Position numbers and translations under genes: made by a program. Shown one piece after another: positions 6,357 to 23,358 of a DNA stretch of 48,431 nt. Location: assembly GCA_019635715.1 (NCBI GenBank), contig JAHBYY010000033.1, positions 1 to 48,431 on the forward strand, in the 5' to 3' direction. A model generated the notes under the pieces. The model did not search any database, was not told the origin of the DNA, and saw only the letters and a list, made by a program, of their open reading frames with translations. This stretch comes from Rhizobiaceae bacterium. Lineage in GTDB: Bacteria; Pseudomonadota; Alphaproteobacteria; Rhizobiales; Rhizobiaceae. Within the stretch, counting starts at the first letter, position 1, and every line of letters begins with the position of its first letter.

Positions 6357-6370
6357 TCGCATTCCCTCCC

Positions 6371-6485
6371 CACCCCCCTCTGGCCTGCCGGCCATCTCCC
6401 CCTCAAGGGGGGAGATTGGCAGCTCCGGCGAGGCGCATAATCTCCCCCCTTGAGGGGGAGATGGCCGGCAGGCCAAAGGGGGGTG
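6371..6485. repeat. Long palindromic intergenic element, type C
   Basis: Two 47-base arms (6371-6417 and 6439-6485) are reverse complements with a single mismatch, separated by 21 bases. Each arm also contains a smaller palindrome, CATCTCCCCCTCAAGGGGGG in the left arm. The RNA would form a very stable hairpin between the FAD-enzyme and GcvT-like genes. A related copy sits at 32134-32291, sharing the CTCCCCCTCAAGG core and the flank GAGATTGGCAGCT. It is a non-coding, REP-like dispersed element. Confidence 0.9.
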
Positions 6486-6504
6486 TGACAGCAACAGGTC
6501 ATCC

Positions 6505-8252: not shown

Positions 8253-8333
8253 ATAAATCAGCGCACTCACGCTCATCGTCCGACTCCCGAGCGAGCGCCT
8301 TCGGGATCCGTGCAAGGCGACCCCCACCCCTTA

Positions 8334-8430: not shown

Positions 8431-8462
8431 CAACGAGTCGAGTACGGGCCGGATGCCGCATC

Positions 8463-10082
8463 TCAAATGACGTCATGGGCCGGGCTCATATGGCTGGTGC
8501 CGCGCTTCAGGTCGGAGAGGATCTCGGCGGCGGCGTTGCGGCCGGGGGCGCCCATGACGCCGCCGCCGGGGTGGGTCGACGAGCCACAGATATAGAGGCC
8601 GCCGACCGGCGAGCGGTATTGCGCGTAACCCGGTACGGGACGGTTGAACAGCAACTGGTCGAAGGTCAGCTCGCCCTGGAAGATGTTGCCTTCGGTGAGG
8701 CCGACTTCCGCCTCCAGCTCGCGCGGCGTGCGCACCTCCATGTGGACGATGCGGTCGCGGAAACCGGGCGAGTAATCGGCGATCTGCGAGATCACCGTCT
8801 CGGCGAAGGCGTCGCGGTCGGCGTCCGTCCAGTCGCGGCCCTCCACCTTGGGCGGGCAGTACTGCACGAAGCAGCTCATAAAATGCTTGCCGGGTGGCGC
8901 CATGGTCGGGTCGAGCGTGGTCGGGATCATCATGTCGAGGAAGGGATCGGCCGACCAGCGGCCGGCCTTCCAGTCGTCGTAGCCGCGCTCCATGCGCTCG
9001 ACCGAATCGGTGAAGTGCAGGTCGCCGCGGATGCAGGGCGAGCCCTTCGGCAGGGCGGGGAACTCGGGCAGGGAGTCCAGCGCGATGTTGACCTTGCCGG
9101 AGGAGCCGCGCATGCGGAAATTCTTCACCCTGCGCAGGAAGATCTCCGGCAGTTCCTTCTCCTCCACCAGCTTGAGGAAGGTGCGCTTCACGTCGGCGTT
9201 GGAGACGACCATGCGGCCGCGGATCTCCTCGCCGCCGGCCAGCACGATGCCCTGGGCGCGACCCGCGGCGACGAGGACGCGGTCGACCTCCGCATTGGTG
9301 CGGATCGTGCCTCCGGACGCGCGGAAGCTGTCGGAGAGCGCTTTGGTGATGGCGCCCATGCCGCCGCGCGCATAGCCCCAGGCGCCGACCGAACCGTCGA
9401 CCTCGCCCATGTAATGGTGGAGGAGCACATAGGCCGTGCCGGGCGACATCGGCCCGAGCGCCGTGCCGATGATGCCGGAGATCGAGAAATTCGCCTTGAT
9501 GACGTCGGTCTCGAAATACTCGTCGAGATAGTCCGAGATCGACATGGTCCAGAAGCGCAGCGTGTCGGCCATCTCGCGCGCGCCGAGGCCGGCGAATTTC
9601 TTCGCCAGATAGAGCAGTTCGCCGATGTCGCGCGGCCTGAACGAGGTCGGGTCGGGCGCGGTGCGCATCAGCAGCGGCTGGATGAATCGGCACTGGCGCG
9701 TCACGTCGCGCGAATAGCGGTCGTAGGCCTCGGCGTCGCGCTTCGAGAAGCGGGCGAACTCGCGGCGGTGAGCATGGTGGTCGCGATAGTTGGCGAGGTA
9801 GTCGCCACGCTGAGTGAACACCGCGCCGCCTTCGTAGGAGATCACCTGCAGCCCGTATTTCGGCAGTTCGAGGTCGCGCATGATCTCGGGGCGGAACAGC
9901 GAGCAGACATAGGAGCAGTTGGAATAAAGGAAGCCCGGCGCCAACGAACGGCTGACCGCCGCGCCGCCGATCCAGTCGTTCTTCTCGACCACCAGGACGT
10001 CGAGGCCGGCGCGCTGCAGATAGCAGGCGTTGACGAGCCCGTTGTGGCCCGCCCCGACGACGATCGCGTCCCATGTCTTCAT
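8463..10082 (-). CDS. PYROXD2-like FAD oxidoreductase 2
   Basis: 539-residue flavoprotein of the phytoene-dehydrogenase-like group that includes PYROXD2. The FAD motif GAGHNG (residues 10-15) is followed by the family signature GGAAVSRSLAPGFLYSNCSY, and the C-terminal motif is GLYICGSSTHPGGGVMGAPG. First gene of the minus-strand operon. Its promoter region, shared with the divergent methyltransferase gene, contains one of the three 16-bp operators, so it is probably controlled by the BetI-like repressor at 11039. By context it oxidises an amine-derived intermediate; that is inference, since PYROXD2-type enzymes have no settled reaction. Confidence 0.88.
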   Translation of the reverse strand: MKTWDAIVVGAGHNGLVNACYLQRAGLDVLVVEKNDWIGGAAVSRSLAPGFLYSNCSYVCSLFRPEIMRDLELPKYGLQVISYEGGAVFTQRGDYLANYRDHHAHRREFARFSKRDAEAYDRYSRDVTRQCRFIQPLLMRTAPDPTSFRPRDIGELLYLAKKFAGLGAREMADTLRFWTMSISDYLDEYFETDVIKANFSISGIIGTALGPMSPGTAYVLLHHYMGEVDGSVGAWGYARGGMGAITKALSDSFRASGGTIRTNAEVDRVLVAAGRAQGIVLAGGEEIRGRMVVSNADVKRTFLKLVEEKELPEIFLRRVKNFRMRGSSGKVNIALDSLPEFPALPKGSPCIRGDLHFTDSVERMERGYDDWKAGRWSADPFLDMMIPTTLDPTMAPPGKHFMSCFVQYCPPKVEGRDWTDADRDAFAETVISQIADYSPGFRDRIVHMEVRTPRELEAEVGLTEGNIFQGELTFDQLLFNRPVPGYAQYRSPVGGLYICGSSTHPGGGVMGAPGRNAAAEILSDLKRGTSHMSPAHDVI

Positions 10083-10145
10083 GCGCGGCTGCCCCTCGAA
10101 ATTGCCGGCAATCTGGCACGCAGGGCGCTGGCCTGTCCAGCCATT

Positions 10146-10161
10146 TTGAATGAATGTTCAA
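10146..10161. promoter_or_regulatory. Operator 1 of the BetI-like regulon
   Basis: TTGAATGAATGTTCAA, read on the minus strand as TTGAACATTCATTCAA. It fits TTGAACNNYCATTCAA, shared with the sites at 18935 and 23343. It lies between the divergent PYROXD2-like and methyltransferase genes. The motif resembles the ATTGAACG-type half-sites I recall for BetI operators. Confidence 0.75.
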
Positions 10162-10233
10162 CAAACTATCTTGCCAATTCCTGTTGAGGTGCTACGGTTT
10201 CGAGACCGTCAACCTCTGCACGCAGGACAGGCA

Positions 10234-11025
10234 ATGAGCGCCGGAGACACTGCCGAAGCGGAATATGACGAAGCGGCCATCCGCTTCCTCGAAACGATCT
10301 GGGGCGAGGGATATCTGTCGCCCGGCGGTCCCGACGAGGTCGACCGGGTGCTCGCCGGGCTGTCCCTGGCGGGCAGGCGCGTTCTCGACATCGGCTGCGG
10401 GGCCGGCGGCATCGCGCTGCACCTGATCGAGGCGCATGACGCCGCGCATGTGACTGGCTTCGACGTCGAGGCGCCGGTGATCGAGCAGGCGCGAAAGCTG
10501 GCGGCGGCAAGGGGGCTGTCGGAACGCACGCGGTTCGTGCAGGCGGAGCCTGGCCGGCTGCCGTTCGAGGACGGATCGTTCGACATGGTGTTCTCGAAGG
10601 ACGCGCTGCTGCATGTCGCGGACAAGGATGCGGTCTTCGCAGACATCTTCCGCGTCCTGAAGCCGGGCGGCGTCGTTGCCGCCAGCGACTGGATGATCGG
10701 TCACGACGGCGAGCCGTCGGCGGACATGAAGGCCTATATCGCGGCCGAGGGGCTGAGCTTCTCGATGGCCTCGCCGGCGCGCTACCGGCTGGCCATGCAG
10801 CGCGCCGGCTTCGCCGATATCGCGATCGCCGACCGCAATCCCTGGTACCGGCAGGTGGCGCGGGAGGAACTGGCACGGCTGCGCGGAGAGCTCGGCGACC
10901 GCGCGGCGGCGGAGCTCGGACGGCCCTATGTCGAGAAGAACATCCGCACCTGGGCGTCGATGCAGAAGGTGCTTGACTCGGGCGAGCACCGTCCCACTCA
11001 TCTTCGCGCCCTGAAACCGCAATAG
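10234..11025 (+). CDS. Class I SAM-dependent methyltransferase
   Basis: 263-residue methyltransferase. Motif I is [18 protein letters not shown], the acidic post-I residue is in VTGFDVEAP, and motif IV is [12 protein letters not shown], followed by [15 protein letters not shown]. The overall pattern resembles the phosphoethanolamine / sarcosine-dimethylglycine N-methyltransferase group, so a small amine acceptor is likely. The ATG at 10234 was chosen because the in-frame ATG at 10150 lies inside operator 1. The TetR gene follows 13 bases downstream, so they are probably co-transcribed and autoregulated. A methyltransferase inside an apparently catabolic, demethylating cluster is unexpected. 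Acceptor unknown. Confidence 0.85.
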
Positions 11026-11038
11026 GACGCGCGCGCCG

Positions 11039-11701
11039 ATGAGTTCTGCCAAAGACGACGCAGACAAGAAGGGGCGCAAGGCGTCCAAGGAGACGCGGCG
11101 CCAGCAGCTCATCGAGGCGACCATCGATTCGCTCGCGAAGCGCGGCTATTCGGAGACGACGATGGCCGACGTCGCCGACGGCGCCGGACTGTCGCGCGGC
11201 ATCGTCAACTTCCACTTCGAAAGCAAGGAAAAGCTGCTCGTCGCCACGCTGCAATACATGGCCGACGAATATTCCGCGCATTGGCGCGCCGCATTGCTGG
11301 CGGCCGGCCACGAGCCGTCCGACCAGCTCGCGGCGCTGGTGGCGGCCGATTTCGACCGGGCGATCTGCACCAAGCGCAAGCTCGCGGCCTGGTGCGCGTT
11401 CTGGGGGGAGGCGAAGTCGCGTCCGACCTACCAGGCGCTGTGCGGGGCGCGCGACGAGGCCTACCAGAACGTGTTCGTCGAGCTTTGCCGCCGGCTGCGG
11501 GACGAAGCCGGCTATGGCTTCGACCCCGCGCAGGCCGCGCTGGCGATCAGCGCCATGCTCGAGGGCCTGTGGCTGCGGCTGATGATGGGAACGGAAGGGC
11601 TGACGCGGGAGTCGGCCCTGACGGCCGCCAACCAACTGCTCGACATTGTCTTCCCGAAGCATTTTCCCAGGGTGACCCGTCCGGTCTCCAGGATCGCCTG
11701 A
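11039..11701 (+). CDS. BetI-like TetR-family repressor
   Basis: 220-residue TetR regulator. The N-terminal helix-turn-helix (about residues 20-66, ETRRQQLIEATIDSLAKRGY then TTMADVADGAGLSRGIVNFH) is followed by a ligand-binding half with KRKLAAWCAFWGEAKSRPTY and AMLEGLWLRLMMG. Both stretches resemble BetI, the choline-responsive repressor. The gene sits between the methyltransferase and the first binding-protein gene and is the obvious candidate to bind the three 16-bp sites at 10146, 18935 and 23343. No betA or betB is present, so it is not the orthodox choline operon. The inducer is unknown, probably a quaternary or polycationic amine. Confidence 0.9.
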   Translation: MSSAKDDADKKGRKASKETRRQQLIEATIDSLAKRGYSETTMADVADGAGLSRGIVNFHFESKEKLLVATLQYMADEYSAHWRAALLAAGHEPSDQLAALVAADFDRAICTKRKLAAWCAFWGEAKSRPTYQALCGARDEAYQNVFVELCRRLRDEAGYGFDPAQAALAISAMLEGLWLRLMMGTEGLTRESALTAANQLLDIVFPKHFPRVTRPVSRIA

Positions 11702-11726
11702 CACATAACCGAAGGAGGATGGAACG

Positions 11727-12812
11727 ATGACGGGATTGACGACGAGGTTGGCGGCATCGGCCGCGCTGGCGATACTGCTCGCGGCAGGTACGGCCGGAAC
11801 GGCATCCGCGGCGGACGCGGAGCTGACGATCTTCGACTGGTCGGGCTACGAGGCGCCGGAGTTCCATCCGAAATACGTGGAAAAATACGGCGATTCGCCG
11901 ACCTTCGCCTTCTTCGGCGACGAGGACGAGGCGTTCGAGAAGATCCGCTCCGGCTTCAAGGCCGACCTGGCCCATCCCTGCTCGCAGAGCGTGGTGAAAT
12001 GGCGCGAGGCCGGACTGCTCGAACCGCTGGACACGTCGAAGATCTCCGGCTGGGAGGATCTCAATCCCGGCATCATGGCGATGAAAGATCTCGCCACCAC
12101 CGAGGACGGCACCGCCTGGTTCATGCCGTGGGACTGGGGCAACACGCTCGTCACCTACAATACGGAGAAGGTCGGCGCCGACGAGGTGATGTCGGTCAAG
12201 GCCTTCGCCGATCCGAAGTTCGAGGGGCGCGTGTCGATCGGCGACAATGTCGACGACGCCTATGCGCTGGCTTCGCTCGCCATCGGCCTGCACGACTGGA
12301 CGAAGATGACCGACGAACAGTTCGCGCAAGCCTCCGACTTCCTGCGCCAGGTCCACAAGAACGTCCGCCTCTACTGGACCGACACGACCGAAATCGTCCA
12401 GGCGCTGACCGGCGGAGAAATCGACCTGGCCTGGGCGTGGAACGACGCGGCCGTGCAGTCGGCTGCAGCCGGAGCGCCGATCAAGTCGAACCGCGAAACG
12501 GCCGAGGGGCTGACGACCTGGGTGTGCGGCTATGTGCGGCTCAAGAATGCCCCGGGCAGCGCCGACAAGGCCTATGGCTTCCTCTCCGCCGTCAATGACG
12601 ATCCGGCGGTGGCCAACTACATCGTCAATGACTGGGGCTACGGGCACGCCAATGCCAAGTCGCTCGCCGCCGTCGACCCTGCCATCCTGAAGGAGAAGGG
12701 CTATGACGACGTCGCCAAGTTCGTCGACAAGACGCTTTTCCAGGCTCCCGTGCCGTCGTCCCTGAAGCTGAGGATGATCGAGGAGTTCGAAAAGATCAAA
12801 GCCGGATATTGA
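11727..12812 (+). CDS. PotD-like periplasmic amine-binding protein, copy 1
   Basis: 361-residue extracellular solute-binding protein of the spermidine/putrescine (PotD) type. A signal peptide of about 28 residues ends TASA-ADAE. The mature protein starts LTIFDWSGYEAPEFH, a typical PotD opening. Aromatic and acidic residues expected in the ligand pocket occur in WFMPWDWGNTLV and EIDLAWAWNDAA. A strong ribosome site AAGGAGG lies before the ATG. It is clearly homologous to copy 2, with stretches such as HPCSQSVVKWREAGLL identical in both. The permease and ATPase genes are about 3 kb away on the opposite strand. Binds a cationic amine by family; exact ligand unknown. Confidence 0.92.
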   Translation: MTGLTTRLAASAALAILLAAGTAGTASAADAELTIFDWSGYEAPEFHPKYVEKYGDSPTFAFFGDEDEAFEKIRSGFKADLAHPCSQSVVKWREAGLLEPLDTSKISGWEDLNPGIMAMKDLATTEDGTAWFMPWDWGNTLVTYNTEKVGADEVMSVKAFADPKFEGRVSIGDNVDDAYALASLAIGLHDWTKMTDEQFAQASDFLRQVHKNVRLYWTDTTEIVQALTGGEIDLAWAWNDAAVQSAAAGAPIKSNRETAEGLTTWVCGYVRLKNAPGSADKAYGFLSAVNDDPAVANYIVNDWGYGHANAKSLAAVDPAILKEKGYDDVAKFVDKTLFQAPVPSSLKLRMIEEFEKIKAGY

Positions 12813-12895
12813 GCCGGGCTCTCGTTGTCCCCGGAACCGTTCCGGGAACGAGACCGTCACCGCCGCGTTGATGCCTGCGATCAATCGGAGGATCG

Positions 12896-13135
12896 ATGAT
12901 GGTCACCTTCAGAGAGATGAAAGTGCAGGAAATCGTCGAAGACGGTTCGCTGTCGACCGATGAAAAGATCGAACAACTGCGCGAGATCGAGACGGAAGCG
13001 CGCGGCCTGCAGCGGGCGGCATCGGAAAGCCCGATGAACCCCGGCGACGGCTGGGACGACGAGTTGCGGTCCGTCCGCAAGGCGCTCGACAGGCTCGGCG
13101 CCGAGGAGCCGCCGAAGGGCGCGGCGTCGCTATAG
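12896..13135 (+). CDS. 79-residue helical protein between the two binding proteins
   Basis: Small soluble protein predicted to be mostly helical: MKVQEIVEDGSLSTDEKIEQ, then more charged helix to a flexible C-terminus. CGGAGGATCG precedes the ATG pair at 12896/12899; either could be the start. The middle segment STDEKIEQLREIE has a heptad-like pattern. No signal peptide or membrane segment. Its position inside a tandem pair of binding-protein genes suggests an operon member, but I recognise no family and propose no function. Confidence 0.7.
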   Translation: MMVTFREMKVQEIVEDGSLSTDEKIEQLREIETEARGLQRAASESPMNPGDGWDDELRSVRKALDRLGAEEPPKGAASL

Positions 13136-13206
13136 ACCGCCCGATCCCTATCGACGGTTTCGAGCCGCCGCAGTAGACTCCCGTCCGATTGGGCGGGAGA
13201 CTTTCC

Positions 13207-14292
13207 ATGCGCTTGACGACGGGTCGCTCGACGACGGGTCTCTTGGCGGCGGTCGTCGCCTCGATCACGCTGCTGGGCGGTGCGGCGATCGCTCAGGACA
13301 AGGATCTGGTGGTCTTCGACTGGTCCGGATACGAGGAGCCGCCGTTCCATCAGGGCTATATCGACAAGCATGGCGATGCGCCGAGCTTCGCCTTCTTCGG
13401 CGACGAGGAAGAGGCGCTGCAGAAGATGCGCTCCGGCTTCAGGGTCGACATCGCCCATCCCTGCTCGCAGAGCGTGGTGAAATGGCGGGAGGCCGGGCTG
13501 CTGCAGCCGCTCGACACCGGCCGGATTGCCGGCTGGAACGACATGCTGCCCGGCATCAGGGCGATGAAGAACCTCACGACCACCGATGACGGCAAGGCCT
13601 GGTTCCTGCCGTTCGACTGGGGCAACACCGCCCTGCTGTACCGCACCGACAAGGTGACGGCCGAGGAGGCCGGCTCGCTGCGCGTGCTCGCCGATCCGAA
13701 GTTCCGGGGCCGGGTGACGATCGGCGACAATGTCGACGACGCCTATGCGCTGGCCAGCCTGGTGAACGGGCTGAAGGACTGGACGCAGATGACGGACGCC
13801 GAGTTCGAGCAGGCCTCGCAGTTCCTGCGCGAGGTCCACAAGAACATCCGCCTCTACTGGACCGATTCCACCGACATCAACCAGGCGATCTCCGGCGGCG
13901 AGGTCGACCTGGCCTGGGGATGGAACGAGACCTTCATCACGCTGAAGGGCGAGGGCGTTCCGCTCGCCATGAACCGCGATACCAGGGAGGGCATCTCGAC
14001 CTGGGTGTGCGGCTACGTGCTGATGAAGGACGCGCCCGGCAGCATCGACAAGGCCTACGACTTCCTGTCGGCGGTCAACGCGCCTTCCGTCTCCGACTAT
14101 ATCGTGCGCACCTATGGCTACGGACACGGCAACGGCGCCGGGATGGCCGCGGTCGATCCGGAAGTTCTCAAGAACGGCGGCTACGACGACGTCGACAAAT
14201 TCATCGACAAGACGCTGTTCCAGCAGCCGGTTTCGGCCGAGCTGAAACAGCGCATGGTCGAGGAATTCGAGAAGATCAAGGCAGGCTATTGA
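13207..14292 (+). CDS. PotD-like periplasmic amine-binding protein, copy 2
   Basis: 361 residues, the same length as copy 1. Signal peptide of about 28 residues ending AAIA-QDKD, mature start LVVFDWSGYEEPPFHQGY. The ATG at 13207, preceded by CGGGAG, was preferred over an upstream in-frame start at 13189 because it gives a normal signal peptide. Pocket segments parallel copy 1 (WFLPFDWGNTALL against WFMPWDWGNTLV; VDLAWGWNETFI against IDLAWAWNDAAV) but differ at several positions, so the two may bind related but different amines. The stop overlaps the TTG start of the amine oxidase (TTGA), implying co-translation. Confidence 0.92.
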   Translation: MRLTTGRSTTGLLAAVVASITLLGGAAIAQDKDLVVFDWSGYEEPPFHQGYIDKHGDAPSFAFFGDEEEALQKMRSGFRVDIAHPCSQSVVKWREAGLLQPLDTGRIAGWNDMLPGIRAMKNLTTTDDGKAWFLPFDWGNTALLYRTDKVTAEEAGSLRVLADPKFRGRVTIGDNVDDAYALASLVNGLKDWTQMTDAEFEQASQFLREVHKNIRLYWTDSTDINQAISGGEVDLAWGWNETFITLKGEGVPLAMNRDTREGISTWVCGYVLMKDAPGSIDKAYDFLSAVNAPSVSDYIVRTYGYGHGNGAGMAAVDPEVLKNGGYDDVDKFIDKTLFQQPVSAELKQRMVEEFEKIKAGY

Positions 14293-15617
14293 CCGCGCCG
14301 GTTGCGACGGGCGTCGTCATCGTCGGCGCGGGCTTTGCGGGACTGGCGGCAGCGCATGCCCTGAAGGAGGCCGGCATCGACTTCATCGTGCTGGAGGCGC
14401 GCGACCGCGTCGGCGGCCGGGTCGAGTCGATGGTCAACGGTCTCGGCGAGCGCCTCGACACCGGCGGCCAGTATTTCTGCGACGGCATGGACTCGGTGAT
14501 CGGACTGGCCCGCGCCTATGGGAAGAGCTGGCGCCCGGGACTGTTCGGCGGACGCACGCTGATCCAGCCGCCCGGCTTCAGCACTGCCACGACCGACGAT
14601 CTGTTCACACGATCGACGGCCATCCGCGACCGCATCAACGGCTTCGATCCGGGCGATCCATCGATCGCCGGCCTTTCTGTGCGCGCCTGGCTCGACACAC
14701 AGGGCGATGCCGACGACGCCAAGGCCGCCTTCCTCGGCGCGATCGAAGGCCTCTGGTGCCAGCCGACCGACCGGCTGCCGCTGTGGTATCTCGTCTCCAA
14801 CGACCGGCGCATCACCAACGAGGTGCCGGAACTCCAGTATTTCCTTGGCGAGACCATGCACTCGCTCGCCGAGGACATGGCAGGCGGGCTCGGCGGCCGG
14901 CTGCGGCTGGGCATGCCGGCGCGGCGCATCGAGCGGACGCCCGGCGACGTCACGATCATCACCGATGCGCAGACGTTCTCGGCCAGGCATGTGATCGTCG
15001 CGGTGCCGCCGGCGACGGCGCGCCGCATCGACTTCGTTCCGCCTCTGCCGACCGACCTTGCCGCCGCGCTTCTCGCCTGGGAGAGCGGCCGCGTCGTCAA
15101 GATGGTCATCCGCTACGACCGGCCGTTCTGGCGCGATTCCGGCCTGAGCGGCAGCGTCGTATTCCTCGACCCTCCCGGCCTCTATGCCTGCGATTCTTCT
15201 CCTGGTGCGACGCGCGCCACGATCACCTTCTTCGTCGGAGGAGCGGTCGTCGACGACTGGCACCCGCTCGGTCGCGACGCGATGCGAGCCAAGGCGCTCG
15301 CCCAGCTCGCGGCGGCGCTCGGACCGCAGGCCGCAACCCCGCTCGACGTGGCGCTGCGCGACTGGACCGGCGACTATTGGAGTGGCGGCGCCTATTCCGA
15401 CACGATCATGGATCCCGAGGCGACGAGCGCCGAGGATGTGCTGCTGGCCGGCGCGCCGCGCCTCAACTTCGCCTGTTCCGAGCTGTCGCCGTCCTATCCG
15501 GGCTATATCGAAGGTGCGATCGTCGCGGGACGGGCGGCGGCGGGGCGCGTGATCGCGGAGCTTGGCTACCGGCGCGAGCGGAGCGAACCTGTCCCGGTGA
15601 AGGAGCGTCTGTATTGA
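14289..15617 (+). CDS. Flavin-containing amine oxidase
   Basis: 442-residue FAD enzyme of the monoamine/polyamine oxidase family. The dinucleotide motif VVIVGAGFAGLAAAHALKEAG (GxGxxG at residues 13-18) is followed by LEARDRVGGRVES, the substrate-domain segment EGLWCQPTDRLPLWYLVSN, and a C-terminal FAD motif near ELSPSYPGYIEGAIVAG. No ATG fits. A TTG at 14289 overlapping the TGA of the binding protein gives a canonical N-terminus only 12 residues before the FAD motif, so a TTG start with translational coupling is likely. It would oxidise an amine to imine or aldehyde with release of ammonia or a smaller amine. Two tiny membrane-protein genes follow without gaps. Substrate unknown. Confidence 0.88.
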   Translation: MTAPVATGVVIVGAGFAGLAAAHALKEAGIDFIVLEARDRVGGRVESMVNGLGERLDTGGQYFCDGMDSVIGLARAYGKSWRPGLFGGRTLIQPPGFSTATTDDLFTRSTAIRDRINGFDPGDPSIAGLSVRAWLDTQGDADDAKAAFLGAIEGLWCQPTDRLPLWYLVSNDRRITNEVPELQYFLGETMHSLAEDMAGGLGGRLRLGMPARRIERTPGDVTIITDAQTFSARHVIVAVPPATARRIDFVPPLPTDLAAALLAWESGRVVKMVIRYDRPFWRDSGLSGSVVFLDPPGLYACDSSPGATRATITFFVGGAVVDDWHPLGRDAMRAKALAQLAAALGPQAATPLDVALRDWTGDYWSGGAYSDTIMDPEATSAEDVLLAGAPRLNFACSELSPSYPGYIEGAIVAGRAAAGRVIAELGYRRERSEPVPVKERLY

Positions 15618-15838
15618 GTGTCGTTCAAACCGAGCAGATAAAGTTGACCGCAACCTATCTGAACGGCCTGGCGATCGCGCTTTTCGCGCTCGGCGTTTTC
15701 TCGCCCTTGTTTTCGCTCGTATATGGTAACGCGGGGCGAAGCTCCCAAGCTGTTGCGGTCAGTGTGCTGGTTTGTCTTGTCGCTTCAGTTGCACTACATT
15801 GGCTGGCGAGGCGATCGCTGAAGGGCCTTCAGCCATGA
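15614..15838 (+). CDS. 74-residue two-helix membrane protein, TTG start
   Basis: Starts at TTG 15614, overlapping the amine-oxidase stop, with AAGGAG eight bases upstream. The protein has two hydrophobic segments, about residues 16-37 (LNGLAIALFALGVFSPLF) and 46-64 (AVAVSVLVCLVASVALHWL), joined by a short polar loop and ending in a basic tail ARRSLKG. No recognised family. Because both its start and stop overlap neighbouring genes, it is very probably translated. Base composition is visibly less GC-rich than the flanks. Function unknown; an accessory of the oxidase or a small stress-type protein are possibilities. Confidence 0.7.
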   Translation: MSVVQTEQIKLTATYLNGLAIALFALGVFSPLFSLVYGNAGRSSQAVAVSVLVCLVASVALHWLARRSLKGLQP

Positions 15839-15957
15839 CAGGTGAGCAATTCTGGCTTCTTATGTTGGGACCGATCGGTGGATTGCTGATCGCCGGGTTT
15901 CTTCTGTTCGTAACGAGGCACGAACGCAAGCCACGCCGCCCTCATCCGGGCGAGTAG
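15835..15957 (+). CDS. 40-residue single-pass membrane peptide
   Basis: Encoded from ATG 15835, which overlaps the preceding stop as ATGA. One transmembrane helix (about residues 5-27, FWLLMLGPIGGLLIAGFLLF) is followed by a strongly basic cytoplasmic tail TRHERKPRRPHPGE. It ends six bases before the stop of the convergent ATPase gene. No family recognised. The tight coupling to the 74-residue protein suggests they act together. Confidence 0.65.
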   Translation: MTGEQFWLLMLGPIGGLLIAGFLLFVTRHERKPRRPHPGE

Positions 15958-15962
15958 CCCGC

Positions 15963-17087
15963 TCAATCCGCCATCGCCACCAGCGCATCCGGATCGTAGC
16001 CGAGTCTGATCGTCGCGCCGATCGGCAGGTCGTCGGCGCCGAAATCGTTGGTTTCGGTCACCGAGAGCGGCTTCTCCAGGCCGGGCACATCGACGATCAG
16101 ATGGGTGATCTCGCCGAAATAGTGCCGCTCGACCACGGTGCCGGCGACCTCGTGGCTGGCCGTGGCATCATCCCAGAGGACGCGCAGGCGTTCGGGCCGG
16201 ATGCCGACGGTGGTGGCGGAACCGGGCCTGAGGGTGCTGCGCGGCCTCTCCGTGCGGATGCGCCCAAAACCATGCGTGTCGACGACGATGGCGTCGCCGC
16301 TTTCCTCGACCATTTCGGCCTTGATGAAGTTCATGCCGCCAAGGAAATCGGCGACCTGCCGGTTGACCGGCCGCTGGTAGATCTCCTTGGGAGCGGCGAC
16401 CTGGGCGATCCGCCCGCCGAACATCACGGCGATGCGGTCCGACATGGCAAGCGCCTCGTACTGGTCGTGGGTGACCAGGATGAAGGTGATGCCGACCGCC
16501 TGCTGCAGGCGGCGCAGTTCGACCTGCATCTGCTCGCGCAGCTTCTTGTCGAGGGCCGACAGCGGCTCGTCGAGCAGCAGCACCTTCGGGCGCATCACCA
16601 GGGCCCGGGCCAGCGCGACGCGCTGGCGCTGGCCGCCGGACAGTTCGGTCGCGCCGCGCTTGCCGAGGCCGGACAGCGAGACCATCGCCAGCGCCTCGTC
16701 GACGCGGCGCCGTTCCTCCGCCGCTTCAAGCTTGAGGCGCTTCAGCCCGTAGGCGACGTTCTGCTCGACATTGAGGTGCGGGAAGATGGCGTAGCTCTGG
16801 AACACCATGTTGGTCGGCCGCCGGTTGGCCGGAATGCCGACCATCGACTGGCCATCGATGAGGATCGAACCGGAGGTCGGATTGTCGAAGCCGGCGATCA
16901 TCCTGAGCAGGGTGGTCTTGCCGCAGCCGGAAGGTCCGAGCAAGGAGAAGAACTCACCCTCCCGGATGGAGAGGACGGCGTCGTCGAGCGCCTTGAAGGT
17001 GCCGTAGCTGCGCGTGACGTTGCGGATGTCGATCATCGGACGGTCCGGCAGCGGACGATCTGGAAGCGGGCGGTCAGGCAAGGGCAA
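15963..17087 (-). CDS. PotA-like ABC transporter ATPase
   Basis: Energy-coupling ATPase of a spermidine/putrescine-type importer. Walker A is GPSGCGKTT (residues 51-59 from the TTG start), the Q-loop FQSYAIFPHL, the signature LSGGQRQRVALARAL, Walker B VLLLDEPLSALD, and a C-terminal TOBE domain from about residue 285. The start is uncertain: TTG 17087 overlaps the upstream permease and adds a threefold PLPDR repeat, while ATG 17036 (MIDIRNVTRSYG) gives a conventional N-terminus but has no clear ribosome site. The frame continues the permease operon PotB-PotC-PotA, transcribed from the operator region at 18.9 kb. It pairs functionally with the two PotD-like proteins on the other strand. Confidence 0.93.
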   Translation of the reverse strand: MPLPDRPLPDRPLPDRPMIDIRNVTRSYGTFKALDDAVLSIREGEFFSLLGPSGCGKTTLLRMIAGFDNPTSGSILIDGQSMVGIPANRRPTNMVFQSYAIFPHLNVEQNVAYGLKRLKLEAAEERRRVDEALAMVSLSGLGKRGATELSGGQRQRVALARALVMRPKVLLLDEPLSALDKKLREQMQVELRRLQQAVGITFILVTHDQYEALAMSDRIAVMFGGRIAQVAAPKEIYQRPVNRQVADFLGGMNFIKAEMVEESGDAIVVDTHGFGRIRTERPRSTLRPGSATTVGIRPERLRVLWDDATASHEVAGTVVERHYFGEITHLIVDVPGLEKPLSVTETNDFGADDLPIGATIRLGYDPDALVAMAD

Positions 17088-17886
17088 TCCCCGCGGTCTG
17101 GGCGCGGCGCGCGGCGCGGCGGCGCAGGATTTCGGCGATGGTGAGAAGCAGGAAGGTGCCGGCCAGCATCAGCGTGCCGAGCGCCAGCACGCTCGGCAGC
17201 TTGGCGGCGAAGCGCAATTGTCCCCAGATGTAGACGGGCAGCGTCGCCTCGGTGCCGGCGAGGAAGAAGGCCATGATGAACTCGTCGAGCGAGATGGTGA
17301 AGGAGACCAGCAGCGACGAGATGATCGCCGGGGCCACCATCGGCAGGGTGACGCGCCGGAAGGTGCCGAAGGCGGTCTCGCCGAGATCGGCCGAGGCCTC
17401 TTCGAGGCTGCGGTCGAAGCCCTCGAAGCCTGAGGTCAGCACGCTGACCGAATAGGGGATGCAGACGAGGATGTGGCCGAGCACGACGGTGAACAGCGAC
17501 AGGCTGAGGCCCGCCTGAAGCATGATCAGCAGCATCGAGATGGCGATGACGATCTCCGGAAGGACCAGCGGCGCCATGATCAGGCCGTTGACGGCGCGAC
17601 GGCCGGGGAAGCGGTAGCGGGTGATGGCGCGGGCCGCGCAGATGCCGAGGACGGTCGACAGCACGGCCGCCGAAACGCCGACGACGAGGCTGTTCCAGGC
17701 CGCGTCGAGCAGGGCCGGGGTGCGCGGCAGGTCGCGGTACCATTTCAGCGTAAAGTCGGCGATCGGAAACTGCGGAACCGGCGAGGTGTTGACCGAGAAG
17801 ATCGGCAGGAAGACGATCGGCAGATAAAGGAACACGATGTAGGCCACGGCATAGATCGGCAGCCAGCCGTTCAGGATGCGCCTCAT
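17074..17886 (-). CDS. PotC-like ABC permease
   Basis: 270-residue inner-membrane permease with about six helices. The EAA loop, which contacts the ATPase, is EASADLGETAFGTFRRVTLP. The N-terminal segment AVAYIVFLYLPIVFLPIFSVN and the following periplasmic loop are typical of PotC. The ATG at 17886 overlaps the stop of the PotB-like gene (ATGA at 17883-17886), and its own stop overlaps the putative TTG start of the ATPase. Forms the second membrane half of the amine importer. Confidence 0.93.
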   Translation of the reverse strand: MRRILNGWLPIYAVAYIVFLYLPIVFLPIFSVNTSPVPQFPIADFTLKWYRDLPRTPALLDAAWNSLVVGVSAAVLSTVLGICAARAITRYRFPGRRAVNGLIMAPLVLPEIVIAISMLLIMLQAGLSLSLFTVVLGHILVCIPYSVSVLTSGFEGFDRSLEEASADLGETAFGTFRRVTLPMVAPAIISSLLVSFTISLDEFIMAFFLAGTEATLPVYIWGQLRFAAKLPSVLALGTLMLAGTFLLLTIAEILRRRAARRAQTAGIALA

Positions 17887-18800
17887 CGTCCGAGCCTCAT
17901 CAGCAGGCGCAGGACAAGCACGGAAGCGGCGGCCATGGCGGTGACGACCGCCATCGTCGTCACCGAAAGCGCCGCGCCCAGCGGCCAGTTCGAGGCCTTG
18001 CCGAACTGCGCCTGGATGGCGTTGGCGATCATCACCCCGTCCTTGCCGCCGACGAGGCGCGGCGTGACGAAATCGCCGACGGTGGGGATCATGACGATCA
18101 GCAGGGCCGAGATGACGCCCGGGATCGACAGCGGCAGGGTCACCCGCAGGAAACGCCGGATCGGACCGTCGCCGAGATCCGTCGCGGCTTCGATGAGCGT
18201 GCGGTCGACCTTCTCCAGCGACACGTAGATCGGCAGGATGGCGAACGCCGCCCAGGCATGGGTCAGCGTGATGACCACGGCGGTCGAATTGTAGAGGAAG
18301 GCCGTGGACGGCTCGTCGATGATGCCGACCGCCATCAGGCCGGAGTTCAGAACACCGTTGTAGCCGAGGATCACCTTCCACGACATGACGCGCAGCAGGT
18401 AGCTCGACCAGAAGGGGACGGTGATCAGGAAAAGCCAAAGGTTCTTGTGCCGTCCGCCGTGGAACGAAATGAAATAGGCGATCGGATAGGCGAGCACGAC
18501 GGTGAACAGGGACACGAGCAGGGAGATCACCAGCGAGCGCATCAGCAAGTCGCGGTAGATAGGCTCGGTCAACGCGACCCGGTAGTTCTCCAGCGTGAAC
18601 GTCCTGTCGATCGTCAGGTAGTCCTGCGTCCAGAAACTGTGGGCGATGACGACCAGGATCGGGACGACGAGCAGCACCAGCGCATAGAGGAGCGTCGGGC
18701 TGATCAGCGCATAGGCGCGGGCAGTCTCCGATTGCAGGACGGTCCCGGTGGTGCCGCGCCTGGCGCGATACGGGACGGACCCTCCTGCCGCCGTGGTCAT
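17883..18800 (-). CDS. PotB-like ABC permease
   Basis: 305-residue inner-membrane permease with an N-terminal cytoplasmic stretch of about 30 residues, then six predicted helices. The EAA loop is EAATDLGDGPIRRFLRVTLP, and PTVGDFVTPRLVGG near the C-terminus is characteristic of PotB. The frame is open upstream of 18800, but no better start is visible; the ribosome site before this ATG is weak. First gene of the transporter operon, divergent from the aminotransferase, with operator 2 about 135 bases upstream. Confidence 0.9.
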   Translation of the reverse strand: MTTAAGGSVPYRARRGTTGTVLQSETARAYALISPTLLYALVLLVVPILVVIAHSFWTQDYLTIDRTFTLENYRVALTEPIYRDLLMRSLVISLLVSLFTVVLAYPIAYFISFHGGRHKNLWLFLITVPFWSSYLLRVMSWKVILGYNGVLNSGLMAVGIIDEPSTAFLYNSTAVVITLTHAWAAFAILPIYVSLEKVDRTLIEAATDLGDGPIRRFLRVTLPLSIPGVISALLIVMIPTVGDFVTPRLVGGKDGVMIANAIQAQFGKASNWPLGAALSVTTMAVVTAMAAASVLVLRLLMRLGR

Positions 18801-18934
18801 CGCAGAGGGTCTCGCGCGGGTTCGTCGGGGTCCTGCATGGCTGCTCCCACAGGTCGGAGCGGGGGGCTGCTCCAATGGCGTCCCATTTGTGCCGATCGGC
18901 GGATTGAAATCAAGCAGGAATTCTGAAATATTGA

Positions 18935-18950
18935 TTGAACGGCCATTCAA
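18935..18950. promoter_or_regulatory. Operator 2 of the BetI-like regulon
   Basis: TTGAACGGCCATTCAA, flanked by A and T to extend the palindrome. One base different from the site at 23343. It lies between the divergent transporter operon and aminotransferase gene. A possible plus-strand promoter just upstream is TTGAAA (18904-18909), 17 bases, then AATATT (18927-18932), which would place the operator immediately downstream of the -10. Confidence 0.78.
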
Positions 18951-19031
18951 TATGAGGCTCCGGGCCCCACGTTGACCGCCTGCCGGGGCCTCGCCAAGGC
19001 CCTGCATTGTCTGCCAGATCGCGAGGAGCAA

Positions 19032-20447
19032 ATGGCTGCGGTTCGGGATATCGAAATAGCGGGCGCCGCCTCGGATGCGGGCGAGGCGGTGGAGCTGGCG
19101 AAGCGCCACCTGGTGCAGCCCTGGCCCTATGCCGGATCGGTCGGCACCGAAGCGCGCAGCTTCATCGGCGAAGGCGAGGGCATCTACATCACCGATGGCG
19201 ACGGCAAGCGGCTGATCGACGGGCCGGCCGGCATGTGGTGCGTGAATGTCGGCCATCGCCGGGCCGAGCTCGCCAGCGTCATGTACGACCAGGCGATGCG
19301 GCTCTCCTACAACACGCCCTGGTACACGATGAACGAGCCGTCGGCGGTGCTGGCAGAGCGGCTTGCCGCCCATGCGCCCGGCGACCTCGACCACGTCTTC
19401 TTCACGACGGGGGGGTCTTCGGCCGTCGAAAGCGCCCTGCGCTTCATGCAGTTCTACAACAATGTGCGCGGCCGTCCGGAGAAGAAGCTGATCCTGTCGC
19501 GCGGCGGCGCGTATCACGGCTCGACCTATCTGTCGGCCTCGCTGAACGGCCGGCCGCGTGACCGCGACTGGATGGACGTCGCCGACGGCCAGGTGATCAA
19601 GCTGGCGTCGCCGGACCCGTTCCGCCGGCCCGCCGGCATGACGGTCGAAGCCTTCGCCGACATGTTGGTCGAAGAGTTCCGCGCCACGGTCGAACGCGTC
19701 GGAGCCGAGCGCATCGGCGCCTTCGTCGGCGAGCCGGTACAGGCCTCGGGCGGCGTCGTCGTGCCGCCGGCCGGCTATCTGCCGCGCATCCGGGCGATCT
19801 GCCGGGAGAACGACATTCTCTACGTCTCGGACGAGGTGGTCACCGGCTTCGGCCGGCTCGGCGAGGTTTTTGCCTCGGAGCAGGTTTTCGGCATCGAGCC
19901 GGACATCGTCACCTTCGCCAAGGGGGTGACTTCGGGCTATTTCCCGCTCGGCGGCATGATGGTCTCGGACCGCCTTCTCGCGGATCTGCGGCGCTCCAAC
20001 CATCCCGACGCCATGTATGCGCACGGACTGACCTACAGCAGCCATCCCGTCGGCTGCGCGGTGGCGCTCGCCAATCTCGATCTTCTCGAAGGCGGCATCC
20101 TCGACCATGCGCGCGCCGTGGCCCCGTATTTCCAGCAGCAGCTAAAGACGCTCGAGGCGCTTCCGCTGGTCGGCGAGGTGCGCGGCGCCGGCCTGATGGC
20201 GTGCGTGGAGTGCGTCGCGGACCGTGAGAGCCGCAACCCGCTGAAGCTCGACTACGAGGTCGGCAAGCGGATCGACGCGCATTGCCATGAGCTCGGCCTG
20301 CTGGTGCGTCCGCTGATCCACATGTGCGTGATGTCGCCGCCGCTGATCATCACCCGCAGCCAGATCGACGACATGGTCGACATCCTGCGGCGTGGCATCG
20401 AGCTGACCATGGACGACCTGGCGCGCGAGCGGCTGTGGGTCGGTTGA
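19032..20447 (+). CDS. Class III (omega-type) pyridoxal-phosphate aminotransferase
   Basis: 471-residue PLP enzyme of aminotransferase class III. The start at 19032 has GAGGAG three bases upstream, better than the upstream in-frame start at 18972. The PLP-binding signature is DEVVTGFGRLGEVF followed by DIVTFAKGVTSGYFPLGG, with Lys297 as Schiff-base lysine; FTTGGSSAVESALRF is the phosphate-binding loop. Relatives act on terminal amino groups of omega-amino acids, polyamines or taurine using pyruvate or another keto acid. By context it would remove the primary amine of the imported compound. It is divergent from the transporter operon and shares operator 2. Substrate unknown. Confidence 0.92.
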   Translation: MAAVRDIEIAGAASDAGEAVELAKRHLVQPWPYAGSVGTEARSFIGEGEGIYITDGDGKRLIDGPAGMWCVNVGHRRAELASVMYDQAMRLSYNTPWYTMNEPSAVLAERLAAHAPGDLDHVFFTTGGSSAVESALRFMQFYNNVRGRPEKKLILSRGGAYHGSTYLSASLNGRPRDRDWMDVADGQVIKLASPDPFRRPAGMTVEAFADMLVEEFRATVERVGAERIGAFVGEPVQASGGVVVPPAGYLPRIRAICRENDILYVSDEVVTGFGRLGEVFASEQVFGIEPDIVTFAKGVTSGYFPLGGMMVSDRLLADLRRSNHPDAMYAHGLTYSSHPVGCAVALANLDLLEGGILDHARAVAPYFQQQLKTLEALPLVGEVRGAGLMACVECVADRESRNPLKLDYEVGKRIDAHCHELGLLVRPLIHMCVMSPPLIITRSQIDDMVDILRRGIELTMDDLARERLWVG

Positions 20448-20677
20448 CGCGCCGGACGTCCTGAAAATGGCCGCCGCACCCTGTCTCCGGCCACGGGCCG
20501 GGCCAGAGTGCGACGGTGGCGTCCTTGGGGCTTGGACACCAAAAGGTGATGGAGAACTGATGACGGCGTCGCCGTGAATCCGCCGCGACGATGGAACATG
20601 TTCCCGGCCGGGACTATTACAGGTCGGGGACATGATTTGCTGCTGGCATCTCATGTCAAATCGGGGCATGTGGACGT

Positions 20678-22153
20678 ATGGCAGTTGAAAACCCCGCCCG
20701 GGGCGACAGGCCGCCGCTCAGAAGCTGGAAGGAGATCGCATCGTTCTTCGGCCGTGACGAGCGCACGGTCAAACGGTGGGAAACCAGGCGCGGGATGCCC
20801 GTGCACAGGCTTCCAGGCGCGACGCGCGCCTCCGTCTATGCCTATCCGAACGAACTCGAAATCTGGCTGCGGGCCAGCCGCTGCGCCGGAGCCCTGGACG
20901 AGGGATCTTCCGACGAGGGCTCGGTCCTCGCGGAGGAGGCGCTGGCCGACTTTCCGGTGCCCGCGACGGCGGCGATCGGCTCGACGCCCGCGGCACCGTC
21001 CGCCCCGTCACGCGGACGCCGCTTCGTGCTCGCCGGCATGCTGGGCGCGGTCGGCGTGGCGGTGGGCGCCTTCGTGCTCGGCGGCGGCACGGATTCGGCC
21101 GGCGGCCGCGAACCGCTGTCCGACAATCCCGCGGCACGCGAAGCCTATCTGAGCGCCAACTACCAACTGGCTCTGCGGACCGGCGGCGGGCTGAGCAGAG
21201 CCGTCCAGCTTTTCACCCAGGCGATCACCGAGGATCCCGAATTCGCTGCCGCCTATGCGGGGCTGTCGAAGGCCTATGCCCTGCTCAGCCAGTATTCGGA
21301 GATGCCTGCCGACCAGGCCTATCCGCTGGCCAAGGCGGCCGGCGAACGGGCGTTGAAGCTCGACCCGGAACTGGCCTCGGCGCTGGCGGCGCTGGCGCTG
21401 ACCACCTTCTACTGGGACCGCGATTTCGAAGCGTCGCGCCGGCTGTTCGAACAGGCCCTGGCGATCGATCCGACCTCGGCGGAGACGTTGCACTGGTACG
21501 GCCTGACCATGATGCAGACGGGCGCCTTCGACGTGGCGCTGGCGGCCATCCGCAGGGCGCAGGAACTCGACCCCCGTTCACGGGCCATCCTGGCCAACAA
21601 GGGGCTCATCCTCTACCACGCCGGCAGCCTCGACGAGGCGGCGGAACTGCTGCGGCAATTCTCCGAGAATGCCGCCGACTATGCGGCACCGCATTTCTAC
21701 CTCGCCGACATCTATTTCGACCAGGGACGATACCGCGAGTTCATCGACGAATCGCTGATCGCCGCCGATGCGGCGCGCGACGATTCGATGCGCGAGATGT
21801 TCGAGGCGGCCCGCCAGGGTTTCGAGATCTCGGGACGCGACGGCCTGCTGCAGTCGCTGCTGGTGAAGCAGCGCCTGCAGCAGCGGGCAGGCGCGCTGCC
21901 CGCCTACAAGCTGGCGCGCACGCTCGCCTTCCTGGGGCGAACGGACGAGGCCTTGACCTATCTGGCGCTCTCCGTGGCGGAACGGGAGCCGGATTCGCTC
22001 GGGATCAAGATCGATTCGGCATTTGCCCGGCTACACGACAACCAGACCTACAGGGATCTCCTGATGAAGGCCGGCCACACGGTGCAGGTGGCCGGGCGTG
22101 CCTTGGAGGTCGCGGAGGATCGGCTCACGAGCGCGACCGAAGGGCCTCATTGA
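20678..22153 (+). CDS. Membrane-tethered HTH plus TPR protein
   Basis: 491 residues. The N-terminus (about 14-65) carries a helix-turn-helix like that of MerR/excisionase proteins: WKEIASFFGRDERTVKRWET, then a wing-like GMPVHRLPGATRASVYAYPNEL. A linker rich in Ala, Pro and Ser leads to one transmembrane helix (about 116-136), then a periplasmic tetratricopeptide-repeat domain (about 145-480) with repeats such as YDQGRYREF-like and RSRAILANKGLILYHAGSLD. This architecture recalls membrane-bound one-component regulators of the CadC/ToxR kind. The start was chosen from the family-like N-terminus. It overlaps the convergent Rieske gene by 29 bases. No operator of the BetI-like regulon is seen upstream, so membership in that regulon is doubtful. 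Confidence 0.83.
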   Translation: MAVENPARGDRPPLRSWKEIASFFGRDERTVKRWETRRGMPVHRLPGATRASVYAYPNELEIWLRASRCAGALDEGSSDEGSVLAEEALADFPVPATAAIGSTPAAPSAPSRGRRFVLAGMLGAVGVAVGAFVLGGGTDSAGGREPLSDNPAAREAYLSANYQLALRTGGGLSRAVQLFTQAITEDPEFAAAYAGLSKAYALLSQYSEMPADQAYPLAKAAGERALKLDPELASALAALALTTFYWDRDFEASRRLFEQALAIDPTSAETLHWYGLTMMQTGAFDVALAAIRRAQELDPRSRAILANKGLILYHAGSLDEAAELLRQFSENAADYAAPHFYLADIYFDQGRYREFIDESLIAADAARDDSMREMFEAARQGFEISGRDGLLQSLLVKQRLQQRAGALPAYKLARTLAFLGRTDEALTYLALSVAEREPDSLGIKIDSAFARLHDNQTYRDLLMKAGHTVQVAGRALEVAEDRLTSATEGPH

Positions 22154-23324
22154 GCGCCCACAGGTCCTTCTCCTCCGGCGCGGTTTCCAGCGACAGCACG
22201 GGCAACTGGCGGCGAAGATGGTCGTGATGGCTGCGCACGCCATATTCGAGGTCGGAGAGATAGAAGCCTGAAAAGGCGTCCGACAGCATCGATTCATTCG
22301 ACCAGATGGTCAACTGGACATCCTCCGAGGTGGTTTCGCGGTCGATGCGCAGCGCCAGATAGCGGGCGGCGGCCTGGCGGCGCGTCTCCTCGCGGTATCG
22401 GTAGATCGCGCCGCGCAGCAGCGTCCTGCCGGTCGCCAACGGGAATTCCTGATAGAACTGCACCGTTTCGGGCGTCATCGCCAGAACCATGTTGGGGAAG
22501 ATGCCGTAGTAGACCCAGGCCTTCCTGAGATGGTCGGGCAGGTTCGGGTTGTCTTCCGAGAGGCGGACGTAGTTGCGAACGCTCCAGCGGCGGCCGGCAT
22601 GGGGATTGTAGGTCGCGAAGGAGCGGGAAACGCCGTTGACGAAGGGCTCGTCGAAATAGGTCGCGCCATAGAGGTCCTGCAGCGCAGGGTGCGCCATCGC
22701 GACGTGATAGCCCTCGTTGTCGACGTCGCGCACCGACTTCCAGTTCACCGGAGAGATCTGGGTCCAGGTTCCGTAGGCGGGCACCATGTCGGCGACGCAG
22801 TAATGCGCCAGCTCGGCCTCGACGGGCTTCATCAGTTCGGCAACGGACGGTTGCGGCCCAGGACGGAACCTGACGAAGACGAAACCCATCCAGATCTCGG
22901 TTTCAAGCGGGGTGAGCCCGAACTCGGTCTTGTCGAGTTCCGGAAACGAGCCCGGCCGGGCGGCGCCGCGCAAGGTGCCGTCGAGATTGTAGACCCAGCC
23001 GTGAAACGGGCAGACCAGCGCGTTGCGGCAGCTTCCCTTGTCGTCGGCGACGACGCGCGAGCCGCGATGCCGGCACATATTGTGGAAGGCGCGCACGACG
23101 CCGTCCTTGCCGCGCACGACCAGCGCCCGTTCGCCGACGATGTCGACCGCGATGTAGTCGCCGGCGTGCTCGACATCCGAGACATGGCCGGCGATCTGCC
23201 AGTGGTTACGAAACAGATACTCCTTCTCGAGGTCGAGCAGCGCGGGACTGTGGTAGGTCCAACCGGGCAGGCCGCGACGATCCCAGTCGTTCGGAACGCT
23301 CACGTCGCGCGCATGGAGGTTCAT
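22125..23324 (-). CDS. Rieske non-heme iron oxygenase, quaternary-ammonium type
   Basis: 399-residue oxygenase large subunit. The Rieske [2Fe-2S] ligands are C84 and H86 (MCRHRG) and C105 and H108 (CPFHGW). The mononuclear iron site is NWKSVRDVDNEGYHVAMAH, with H207 and H212. The residue bridging the two metal centres is E204 rather than the Asp common in aromatic-ring dioxygenases; Glu there is a feature of carnitine, glycine-betaine and related oxygenases, from memory. ATG 23324 with AAGAAGG upstream was preferred to an in-frame ATG at 23354, which lies inside operator 3. No reductase or ferredoxin gene is adjacent, so electrons must come from elsewhere. By inference it cleaves or demethylates an N-methylated amine. 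Confidence 0.9.
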   Translation of the reverse strand: MNLHARDVSVPNDWDRRGLPGWTYHSPALLDLEKEYLFRNHWQIAGHVSDVEHAGDYIAVDIVGERALVVRGKDGVVRAFHNMCRHRGSRVVADDKGSCRNALVCPFHGWVYNLDGTLRGAARPGSFPELDKTEFGLTPLETEIWMGFVFVRFRPGPQPSVAELMKPVEAELAHYCVADMVPAYGTWTQISPVNWKSVRDVDNEGYHVAMAHPALQDLYGATYFDEPFVNGVSRSFATYNPHAGRRWSVRNYVRLSEDNPNLPDHLRKAWVYYGIFPNMVLAMTPETVQFYQEFPLATGRTLLRGAIYRYREETRRQAAARYLALRIDRETTSEDVQLTIWSNESMLSDAFSGFYLSDLEYGVRSHHDHLRRQLPVLSLETAPEEKDLWALNEALRSRS

Positions 23325-23342
23325 GATCGGCCTTCTTTTTTG

Positions 23343-23358
23343 TTGAACGGTCATTCAA
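23343..23358. promoter_or_regulatory. Operator 3 of the BetI-like regulon
   Basis: TTGAACGGTCATTCAA, an inverted repeat with six-base spacer between TTGAA and TTCAA. It directly abuts the -10 element of the Rieske promoter, a position suited to repression. Confidence 0.8.

Follow-up and report, generated by a model that had tools for sequence, protein, structure and literature searches.

A predicted three-operator regulon of a BetI-like repressor in a Rhizobiaceae bacterium, probably for an N-methylated amine

The window analysed here, the whole 48,431-nt stretch of contig JAHBYY010000033.1 from a soil Rhizobiaceae bacterium related to Mesorhizobium, contains three copies of a 16-bp palindrome placed before genes for an importer, flavoproteins, a Rieske oxygenase and other predicted amine-handling enzymes, among which lies a gene (11039..11701, plus strand) for a TetR regulator with a BetI-like C-terminal domain (PF13977, 72.9 bits; PF00440, 50.3 bits). 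We consider it very likely that the three sites constitute the regulon of this regulator, the 11039 protein, as a first-pass annotation of the same DNA had proposed. This reading is supported by the genome-wide uniqueness of the sites, by their conservation at the same promoters and by their co-occurrence with TetR orthologs; weaker support comes from palindromes resembling the operator, whose sequence drifts along with that of distant regulators. Sites, uniqueness, conservation, ortholog pairing and gene families were all derived from sequence. That the regulon serves an N-methylated amine is, with less confidence, probable, and a similar degree of belief attaches to the full explanation, namely a five-unit regulon repressed by the 11039 protein for the uptake and breakdown of such an amine.

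Binding, repression, autoregulation, ligand, operon extents, reaction order and substrate class we infer as follows. The 11039 protein would be a TetR/BetI-type repressor that binds the palindrome TTGAAYNNNNRTTCAA and, from two divergent promoters and one single promoter, would shut off five units: fadB-fadA-gcvT; methyltransferase-tetR-binding proteins-amine oxidase, and hence its own gene; potBCA; the aminotransferase; and the Rieske oxygenase. On binding an amine, the repressor would come off the DNA; the importer would take up an N-methylated amine, the Rieske oxygenase would attack at a methylated nitrogen, the flavoproteins with GcvT would transfer N-methyl groups oxidatively to tetrahydrofolate, and any amino group(s) left would be removed by the aminotransferase and amine oxidase.

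Operator sites and their conservation

Exact matches to the pattern TTGAACNNYCATTCAA were found at 10146 (minus), 18935 (plus) and 23343 (plus) and nowhere else in the window, which recovers all three occurrences claimed by the first-pass annotation; given the base composition, chance alone would yield 0.00006 matches over the window and 0.005 over 4.57 Mb, with both strands counted. The genome scan that the annotation had called for gave the same three exact matches, no place with one mismatch and eight places elsewhere with two in the organism's own assembly (151 contigs, 4.57 Mb, 85% complete), so that the motif is not frequent at unrelated promoters.

By pattern match, Operator 1 (TTGAACATTCATTCAA, 10146..10161, minus strand) lies between the divergent fadB (start 10082, minus) and methyltransferase (start 10234, plus) genes, Operator 2 (TTGAACGGCCATTCAA, 18935..18950, plus strand) between the divergent potBCA (potB start 18800, minus) and aminotransferase (ATG 19032, plus) genes, and Operator 3 (TTGAACGGTCATTCAA, 23343..23358, plus strand) 18 bp before the ATG (23324) of the Rieske gene. 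The longest open reading frame of the Rieske gene begins inside Operator 3, and the ATG at 23322-23324, just downstream of it, is the likelier start. Each site had been described as standing upstream of one transcription unit; the upstream placement holds, but since Operators 1 and 2 are intergenic between divergent genes, the three sites face five presumed units, probably with about 13 genes. At promoter 2, a −35-like TTGAAA (18904-18909) and a −10-like AATATT (18927-18932), 17 bp apart, were read by eye; the pair ends two bases before Operator 2, which would fit repression by blocking initiation, and alignment of the promoters shows this block to be conserved.

A single scan with the TetR protein yielded 80 loci, mainly from Mesorhizobium and Phyllobacterium, in which a site was called conserved if it had at most one mismatch in 12 fixed positions. 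Promoters 1, 2 and 3 could be scored in 72, 63 and 43 loci, the rest having no flanking gene in the fetched DNA (at promoter 3, nine Rieske genes that ran past its end were left unscored). A site was present at promoter 1 (fadB/methyltransferase) in 71 of 72 loci, at promoter 2 (potB/aminotransferase) in 63 of 63 and at promoter 3 (Rieske oxygenase) in 41 of 43, or 175 of 178 scored promoters altogether, compared with 10 sites, two of them exact, in 1,519,571 bases of background. The promoter-1 miss, L015, was counted as such though an exact site sits 69 bases outside the scored interval, and the promoter-3 misses were L077 and L084. When the promoters were aligned (n = 72, 59 and 43), the best-conserved 16-mer overlapped the operator each time. 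Genome-wide uniqueness, conservation and background counts led us to reject a chance motif.

Loci of Mesorhizobium, Phyllobacterium and Ensifer retain the gene set, and 51 of 385 sampled genomes of the class have FadB relatives (E up to 1e-120). TetR, the aminotransferase, both flavoproteins, GcvT, at least one Rieske oxygenase and an importer stand together on plasmids of Fuscovulum, Parasedimentitalea and Rhizobium sp. SL42, with two Rhodobacterales plasmids carrying the gene set in rearranged form. In the Rhizobium sp. SL42 record each of the three promoters has kept a site, which is exact at one of them and has a single mismatch at the other two. On this plasmid (L192, 329-12751) the cluster also lies near folD, purU, MocE-type ferredoxin and inositol dehydrogenase genes, surroundings that look like a rhizopine-type catabolic region.

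The regulator, its sites and canonical BetI

With its PF00440 domain and a palindrome at its own and its target promoters, the 11039 protein has the features of a TetR repressor, with binding predicted. Whole-genome scans with TTGAAYNNNNRTTCAA of the genomes behind 32 named loci returned 100 places, versus 14 when the pattern was reversed as a control. The positions of the matches were classified for 23 of these genomes, where 58 of 73 places were at the cluster, and two split-contig cases were fetched and confirmed there. Among 61 relatives, own genome included, 13 have a TetR ortholog (at least 58% identity), and in every one of them the cluster carries a site or a near-site: in eight the sites are exact (TTGAAYNNYCATTCAA scan), and in the other five a site whose fixed ends contain no more than one mismatch lies next to tetR, fadB or the aminotransferase gene. 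The 48 relatives without an ortholog gave six matches in total, one each in six genomes. One of the six, in G045, lies upstream of an MttB-family gene (L121); this genome has a more distant BetI-like TetR (31% identity), encoded next to a GbcA-like Rieske protein and close to TTGTATGAGCGTTCAA. The recognition-helix region LSRGIVNFHFESK is shared by 22 of 23 aligned close orthologs, L165 being the one that differs.

In distant loci linked through FadB, the best operator-like word was compared with 500 single-letter shuffles per region, and the number of shuffles reaching the same score was 2 for L176 (TTGAGCGTTTATTCAA), 3 for L177 (TTGAGCAGTTATTTAA), 3 for L178 (TTGAGCGCTTATTTAA, with no TetR gene seen in that stretch), 1 for L181 (TTGATTGAACGTTCAA) and 2 for L188 (TTGGACGGGCGTTTAA). 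Distant locus L186 gave TTGAATGCTTATTCAG upstream of fadB (0/500) and a weaker result at tetR/aminotransferase (26/500). For part of the loci these words are suggestive of operator drift along with the regulator, which elsewhere is absent or unproven; some of the regulators concerned have other recognition helices. As a separate observation, the palindromes TTGAATCCCGATTCAA and TTGAACTGTGATTCAA stand just before another potA-like ATP-binding cassette (ABC) gene in the organism's own genome (L007:1501-1516, own C93:25515-25530) and in two Mesorhizobium genomes (L135 and L142, around 1501), and are possibly the operator of a different regulator.

The first-pass annotation had also placed a BetI-like TetR gene inside the region. 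The likeness stands, but the protein is a paralog: the canonical BetI of the same genome is a separate gene at C66 (235.9 bits with the BetI model TIGR03384, cut-off 201.3). The two BetI models disagree on the 11039 protein, which exceeds the cut-off of PRK00767 (121.7 versus 118 bits) and stays below that of TIGR03384 (127.6 bits). In a midpoint-rooted tree of 42 TetR proteins, whose bootstrap had not settled and which carries a long-branch warning there, the BetIs of this genome, of relative G005 and of E. coli group together (100/96), and the clade of the 11039 protein sits apart from them within a set of 37 rows (99/96). The 11039 protein shares the TetR family and the BetI-type C-terminal domain with the choline-responsive BetI of E. 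coli and S. meliloti, unlike which it falls below the TIGR03384 cut-off, groups separately and has no betA- or betB-like gene among its scanned neighbours (Pfam scan of 30 open reading frames at 446-26451); for these frames, the annotation's statement that the region is without betA or betB is borne out.

Could the canonical BetI, rather than the 11039 protein, control the three sites in response to choline? The canonical gene is present, and the betI-betT intergenic DNA of E. coli holds TTGATTGGACGTTCAA, a 16-bp palindrome of similar layout, so that the operators here are of BetI layout. In G005 (L105/L128), TTGAATGGGTGTTCAA occurs at L128:9167 between a gene grouping with canonical BetIs and a periplasmic-binding-protein-like gene, indicating that the two kinds of regulator can have converging boxes. 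However, the organism's own betI is directly preceded by TTGATTGATTGATCAA, one of the eight two-mismatch places for TTGAACNNYCATTCAA and different from the three operators, and is followed by a gene that by eye reads like a choline sulfatase; among relatives, moreover, the sites go with orthologs of the 11039 protein. Together with the separate tree group, these points make the canonical BetI a very unlikely binder. Less probable still is that the sites are an unrelated conserved element, belonging to another regulator or to the promoters themselves: operator binding is predicted only, and further promoter blocks are conserved too, but a palindromic TetR-type site stands at all three promoters and is paired with 11039 orthologs. 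A second alphaproteobacterial BetI, the BetI2 of Ruegeria pomeroyi, controls betTA with choline, and its two boxes share AAACTTGAAC and misfit the betI consensus, according to the available passages of PMC12442346. Compared by box sequences and description, it has no link to this gene set in those passages, and kinship of its boxes with the operators here is possible.

Gene families and the predicted substrate

On the minus strand, fadB (8463..10082) is followed by fadA (6505..8073), both CrtI/CrtO-like flavin adenine dinucleotide (FAD) oxidoreductases by profile matches, and then by a gene for a GcvT-domain aminomethyltransferase (5130..6542; PF01571, 194.5 bits), for which folate-dependent demethylation is predicted. 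G+C-rich repeats were seen by eye between fadA and fadB (8200-8440). FadB is among the most conserved components (82-92% identity in mapped relative loci), and comparison of its structure model (mean predicted local distance difference test score 82.6), nearest to carotenoid desaturases and then to amine oxidases, resolved the superfamily only. The GcvT protein matches the trimethylamine N-oxide (TMAO) demethylase model in its C-terminal part (235.5 bits, below the cut-off of 1100). It shares the GcvT domain with such N-demethylases, among which we take dimethylglycine dehydrogenase to be another comparable case, and could pass a one-carbon unit to tetrahydrofolate; unlike in the TMAO demethylase model, it is a separate protein adjoining CrtI/CrtO-like flavoproteins.

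Co-directional on the plus strand are the genes for an S-adenosylmethionine methyltransferase (10234..11025; PF13847), which weakly resembles a sarcosine/dimethylglycine N-methyltransferase model (70.5 bits, cut-off 550), the 11039 protein, two PotD-fold substrate-binding proteins (11727..12812, by profile and structure comparison; 13207..14292, by profile matches, a second copy found in only part of the relatives) and a monoamine-oxidase-like flavin amine oxidase (14289..15617; PF01593, 184.8 bits). The TTG start of the amine oxidase overlaps the stop codon of binding protein 2, and gene order suggests that both are transcribed from Operator 1. The oxidase's relatives in the PDB are cyclohexylamine, monoamine and putrescine oxidases. 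The importer is completed on the minus strand by a potA-like ABC ATPase (15963..17087; PF00005; TIGR01187, 365.7 bits, cut-off 355.6) and by potC-like (17074..17886) and potB-like (17883..18800) permeases, both from profile matches. A class III aminotransferase follows (19032..20447, plus; PRK07036, 707.9 bits, cut-off 618). Between it and the Rieske gene (22125..23324, minus; PF00355, PF00848) lies a TPR/HTH gene (20678-22153); pieces of a relative occupy this place in same-genus locus L122, but the gene passed the length/identity filter in none of the mapped relative loci and was therefore left out of the core.

The Rieske oxygenase is nearest to GbcA/CntA: it scores 129.1 bits with the GbcA model (below the cut-off of 670), and its best PDB match is CntA. 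Like the group V enzymes CntA, Stc2 and GbcA, it has the bridging glutamate before the Y-H of the iron triad, which is kept as DNEGYHVAMAHP in 56 of 58 Rieske matches examined and as E in the other two, which are paralogs. The binding-protein fold is close to VcPotD1 (7xjm_A; TM-score by query length 0.78) and E. coli PotD (1pot; 0.77), and architecture and fold are shared with the polyamine importers PotABCD and PotFGHI, but two acidic positions of PotD, the Glu of W-T-E-Y and the Asp of W-M-D, which presumably hold primary amines, correspond to Gly40 and Cys267 in every one of the 115 binding-protein rows compared, of which some share a genome.

The Rieske enzyme nearest to CntA and the combination of GcvT with flavoproteins point to an N-methylated amine, as do neighbours in distant versions of the cluster, most of whose matches are below curated cut-offs and none of which is conserved throughout. 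Beside L164 these are carnitine 3-dehydrogenase (697.4 bits, cut-off 592), a BKACE-like enzyme, a PotF-like binding protein and acyl-coenzyme A (CoA) dehydrogenase and CoA-ligase-like genes; beside L125, CaiD-like (310 bits, cut-off 500), acyl-CoA dehydrogenase, CoA-ligase-like and GbdR-like genes, none of which reaches its cut-off; and beside L180, old yellow enzyme and weakly MttB-like genes. The box upstream of the MttB-family gene in G045 fits the same reading. CoA-ligase or acyl-CoA-dehydrogenase relatives lie near L165/L166, L181, L182, L186 and L188, and an aldehyde-dehydrogenase-like gene was read by eye in L176. Taken together, the distant neighbours suggest methylated, probably quaternary, amines.

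Several observations weigh against this account. With respect to the regulon, the regulator passes only one of the two BetI models, and 15 of the 73 places in the 23 classified genomes lie outside the cluster. L180 and L191 both have TTGTTTGAGCGCTCAA, which does not beat shuffles (115/500 and 103/500; the two are sister regulators, and the evidence from the pair comes down to one word found in two records), and no convincing site was found in the intergenic regions of L190 (59/500), L182 (297/500) or the paralog L165:8044 (499/500). Four Mesorhizobium loci, L053, L066, L073 and L077 (~9900-13500), keep TetR (73-75% identity) and the amine oxidase with no fadB, aminotransferase or operators, L077 additionally carrying a Rieske gene; they are suggested to be decayed or relocated copies of the cluster. 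With respect to the chemistry, none of the scanned open reading frames was recognised as an oxygenase reductase, and at CntA positions 203, 206 and 209 the signatures of group V are missing from the Rieske protein. At position 203 it has Asp instead of an aromatic residue (Va) or Asn (Vb), and near the iron it has Gly and Val instead of the Cys-X-X-Cys of some group V members, so that it fits neither described group V clade (features as given in the available passages of PMC7948474 and PMC10952381). With respect to the substrate, PotF-like binding proteins in distant L164, L163 and L190 speak for a diamine-like compound, and the organism's own assembly, at 85% completeness, has no carnitine 3-dehydrogenase above cut-off.

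Two other substrates for the same regulon have to be weighed. An ordinary polyamine or diamine (putrescine, spermidine or cadaverine), with the Rieske and GcvT proteins acting on something else, would suit the Pot-type importer, a binding-protein fold nearest to PotD/PotF, an amine oxidase near putrescine oxidase, the class III aminotransferase and the PotF-like proteins just mentioned; the replacement of both PotD acidic residues in every binding-protein row argues the other way, and we know of no place for GcvT, methyltransferase and Rieske genes in polyamine pathways, which leaves this alternative rather unlikely. We give about the same low credence to a precursor of gamma-butyrobetaine, for example a trimethylated diamine such as trimethylputrescine, fed into the carnitine route. 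Here the carnitine-type and CoA-linked genes beside L164, L125, L165/L166, L181, L182, L186 and L188, and the aldehyde-dehydrogenase-like gene of L176, are in favour, but the own assembly's lack of a carnitine dehydrogenase above cut-off, which also weakens carnitine as the plain substrate, counts against it, and the methyltransferase and demethylating enzymes would be left unexplained. For the Mesorhizobium loci, the search for carnitine-route genes covered the fetched stretches. An N-methylated amine handled by demethylation remains our preferred reading.

Search listings on homarine, proline betaine, trimethyllysine and methylputrescine gave no tie to this gene set, and a text search that covered neither subscription papers nor regulon databases found no published description of it. 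A salt-stress transcriptome of M. alhagi, which has the cluster (L027), names mttB but not the cluster genes in the available text (PMC4302635); passages of PMC4349456 and PMC10130141 were also checked for this gene set, and a term search of PMC13390433 had no matches.

Implications for alphaproteobacterial amine metabolism

The regulator type and the operator layout are of known kinds, while for the gene set and for the Rieske and flavoprotein variants we found no description in the parts of the literature searched. Only tentatively, as one possibility, do we propose a widespread alphaproteobacterial pathway, under a BetI-derived regulator of its own, for removing the N-methyl groups of a quaternary amine resembling a diamine by means of these Rieske and flavoprotein-GcvT variants. 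If that were true, the Rieske oxygenase would represent a new subgroup with Asp at the cation-binding position, and two carotenoid-desaturase-like flavoproteins with a free-standing GcvT would represent a new kind of N-demethylase in a route ending in transamination. The chemistry of the Rieske variant, and that of the two flavoproteins with GcvT, would be undescribed. One regulator, three operators and about 13 genes would make a complete, testable regulon, and the regulator offers a handle on the substrate: a compound that releases the 11039 protein from its operator would identify what is apparently met often by soil and some marine alphaproteobacteria.

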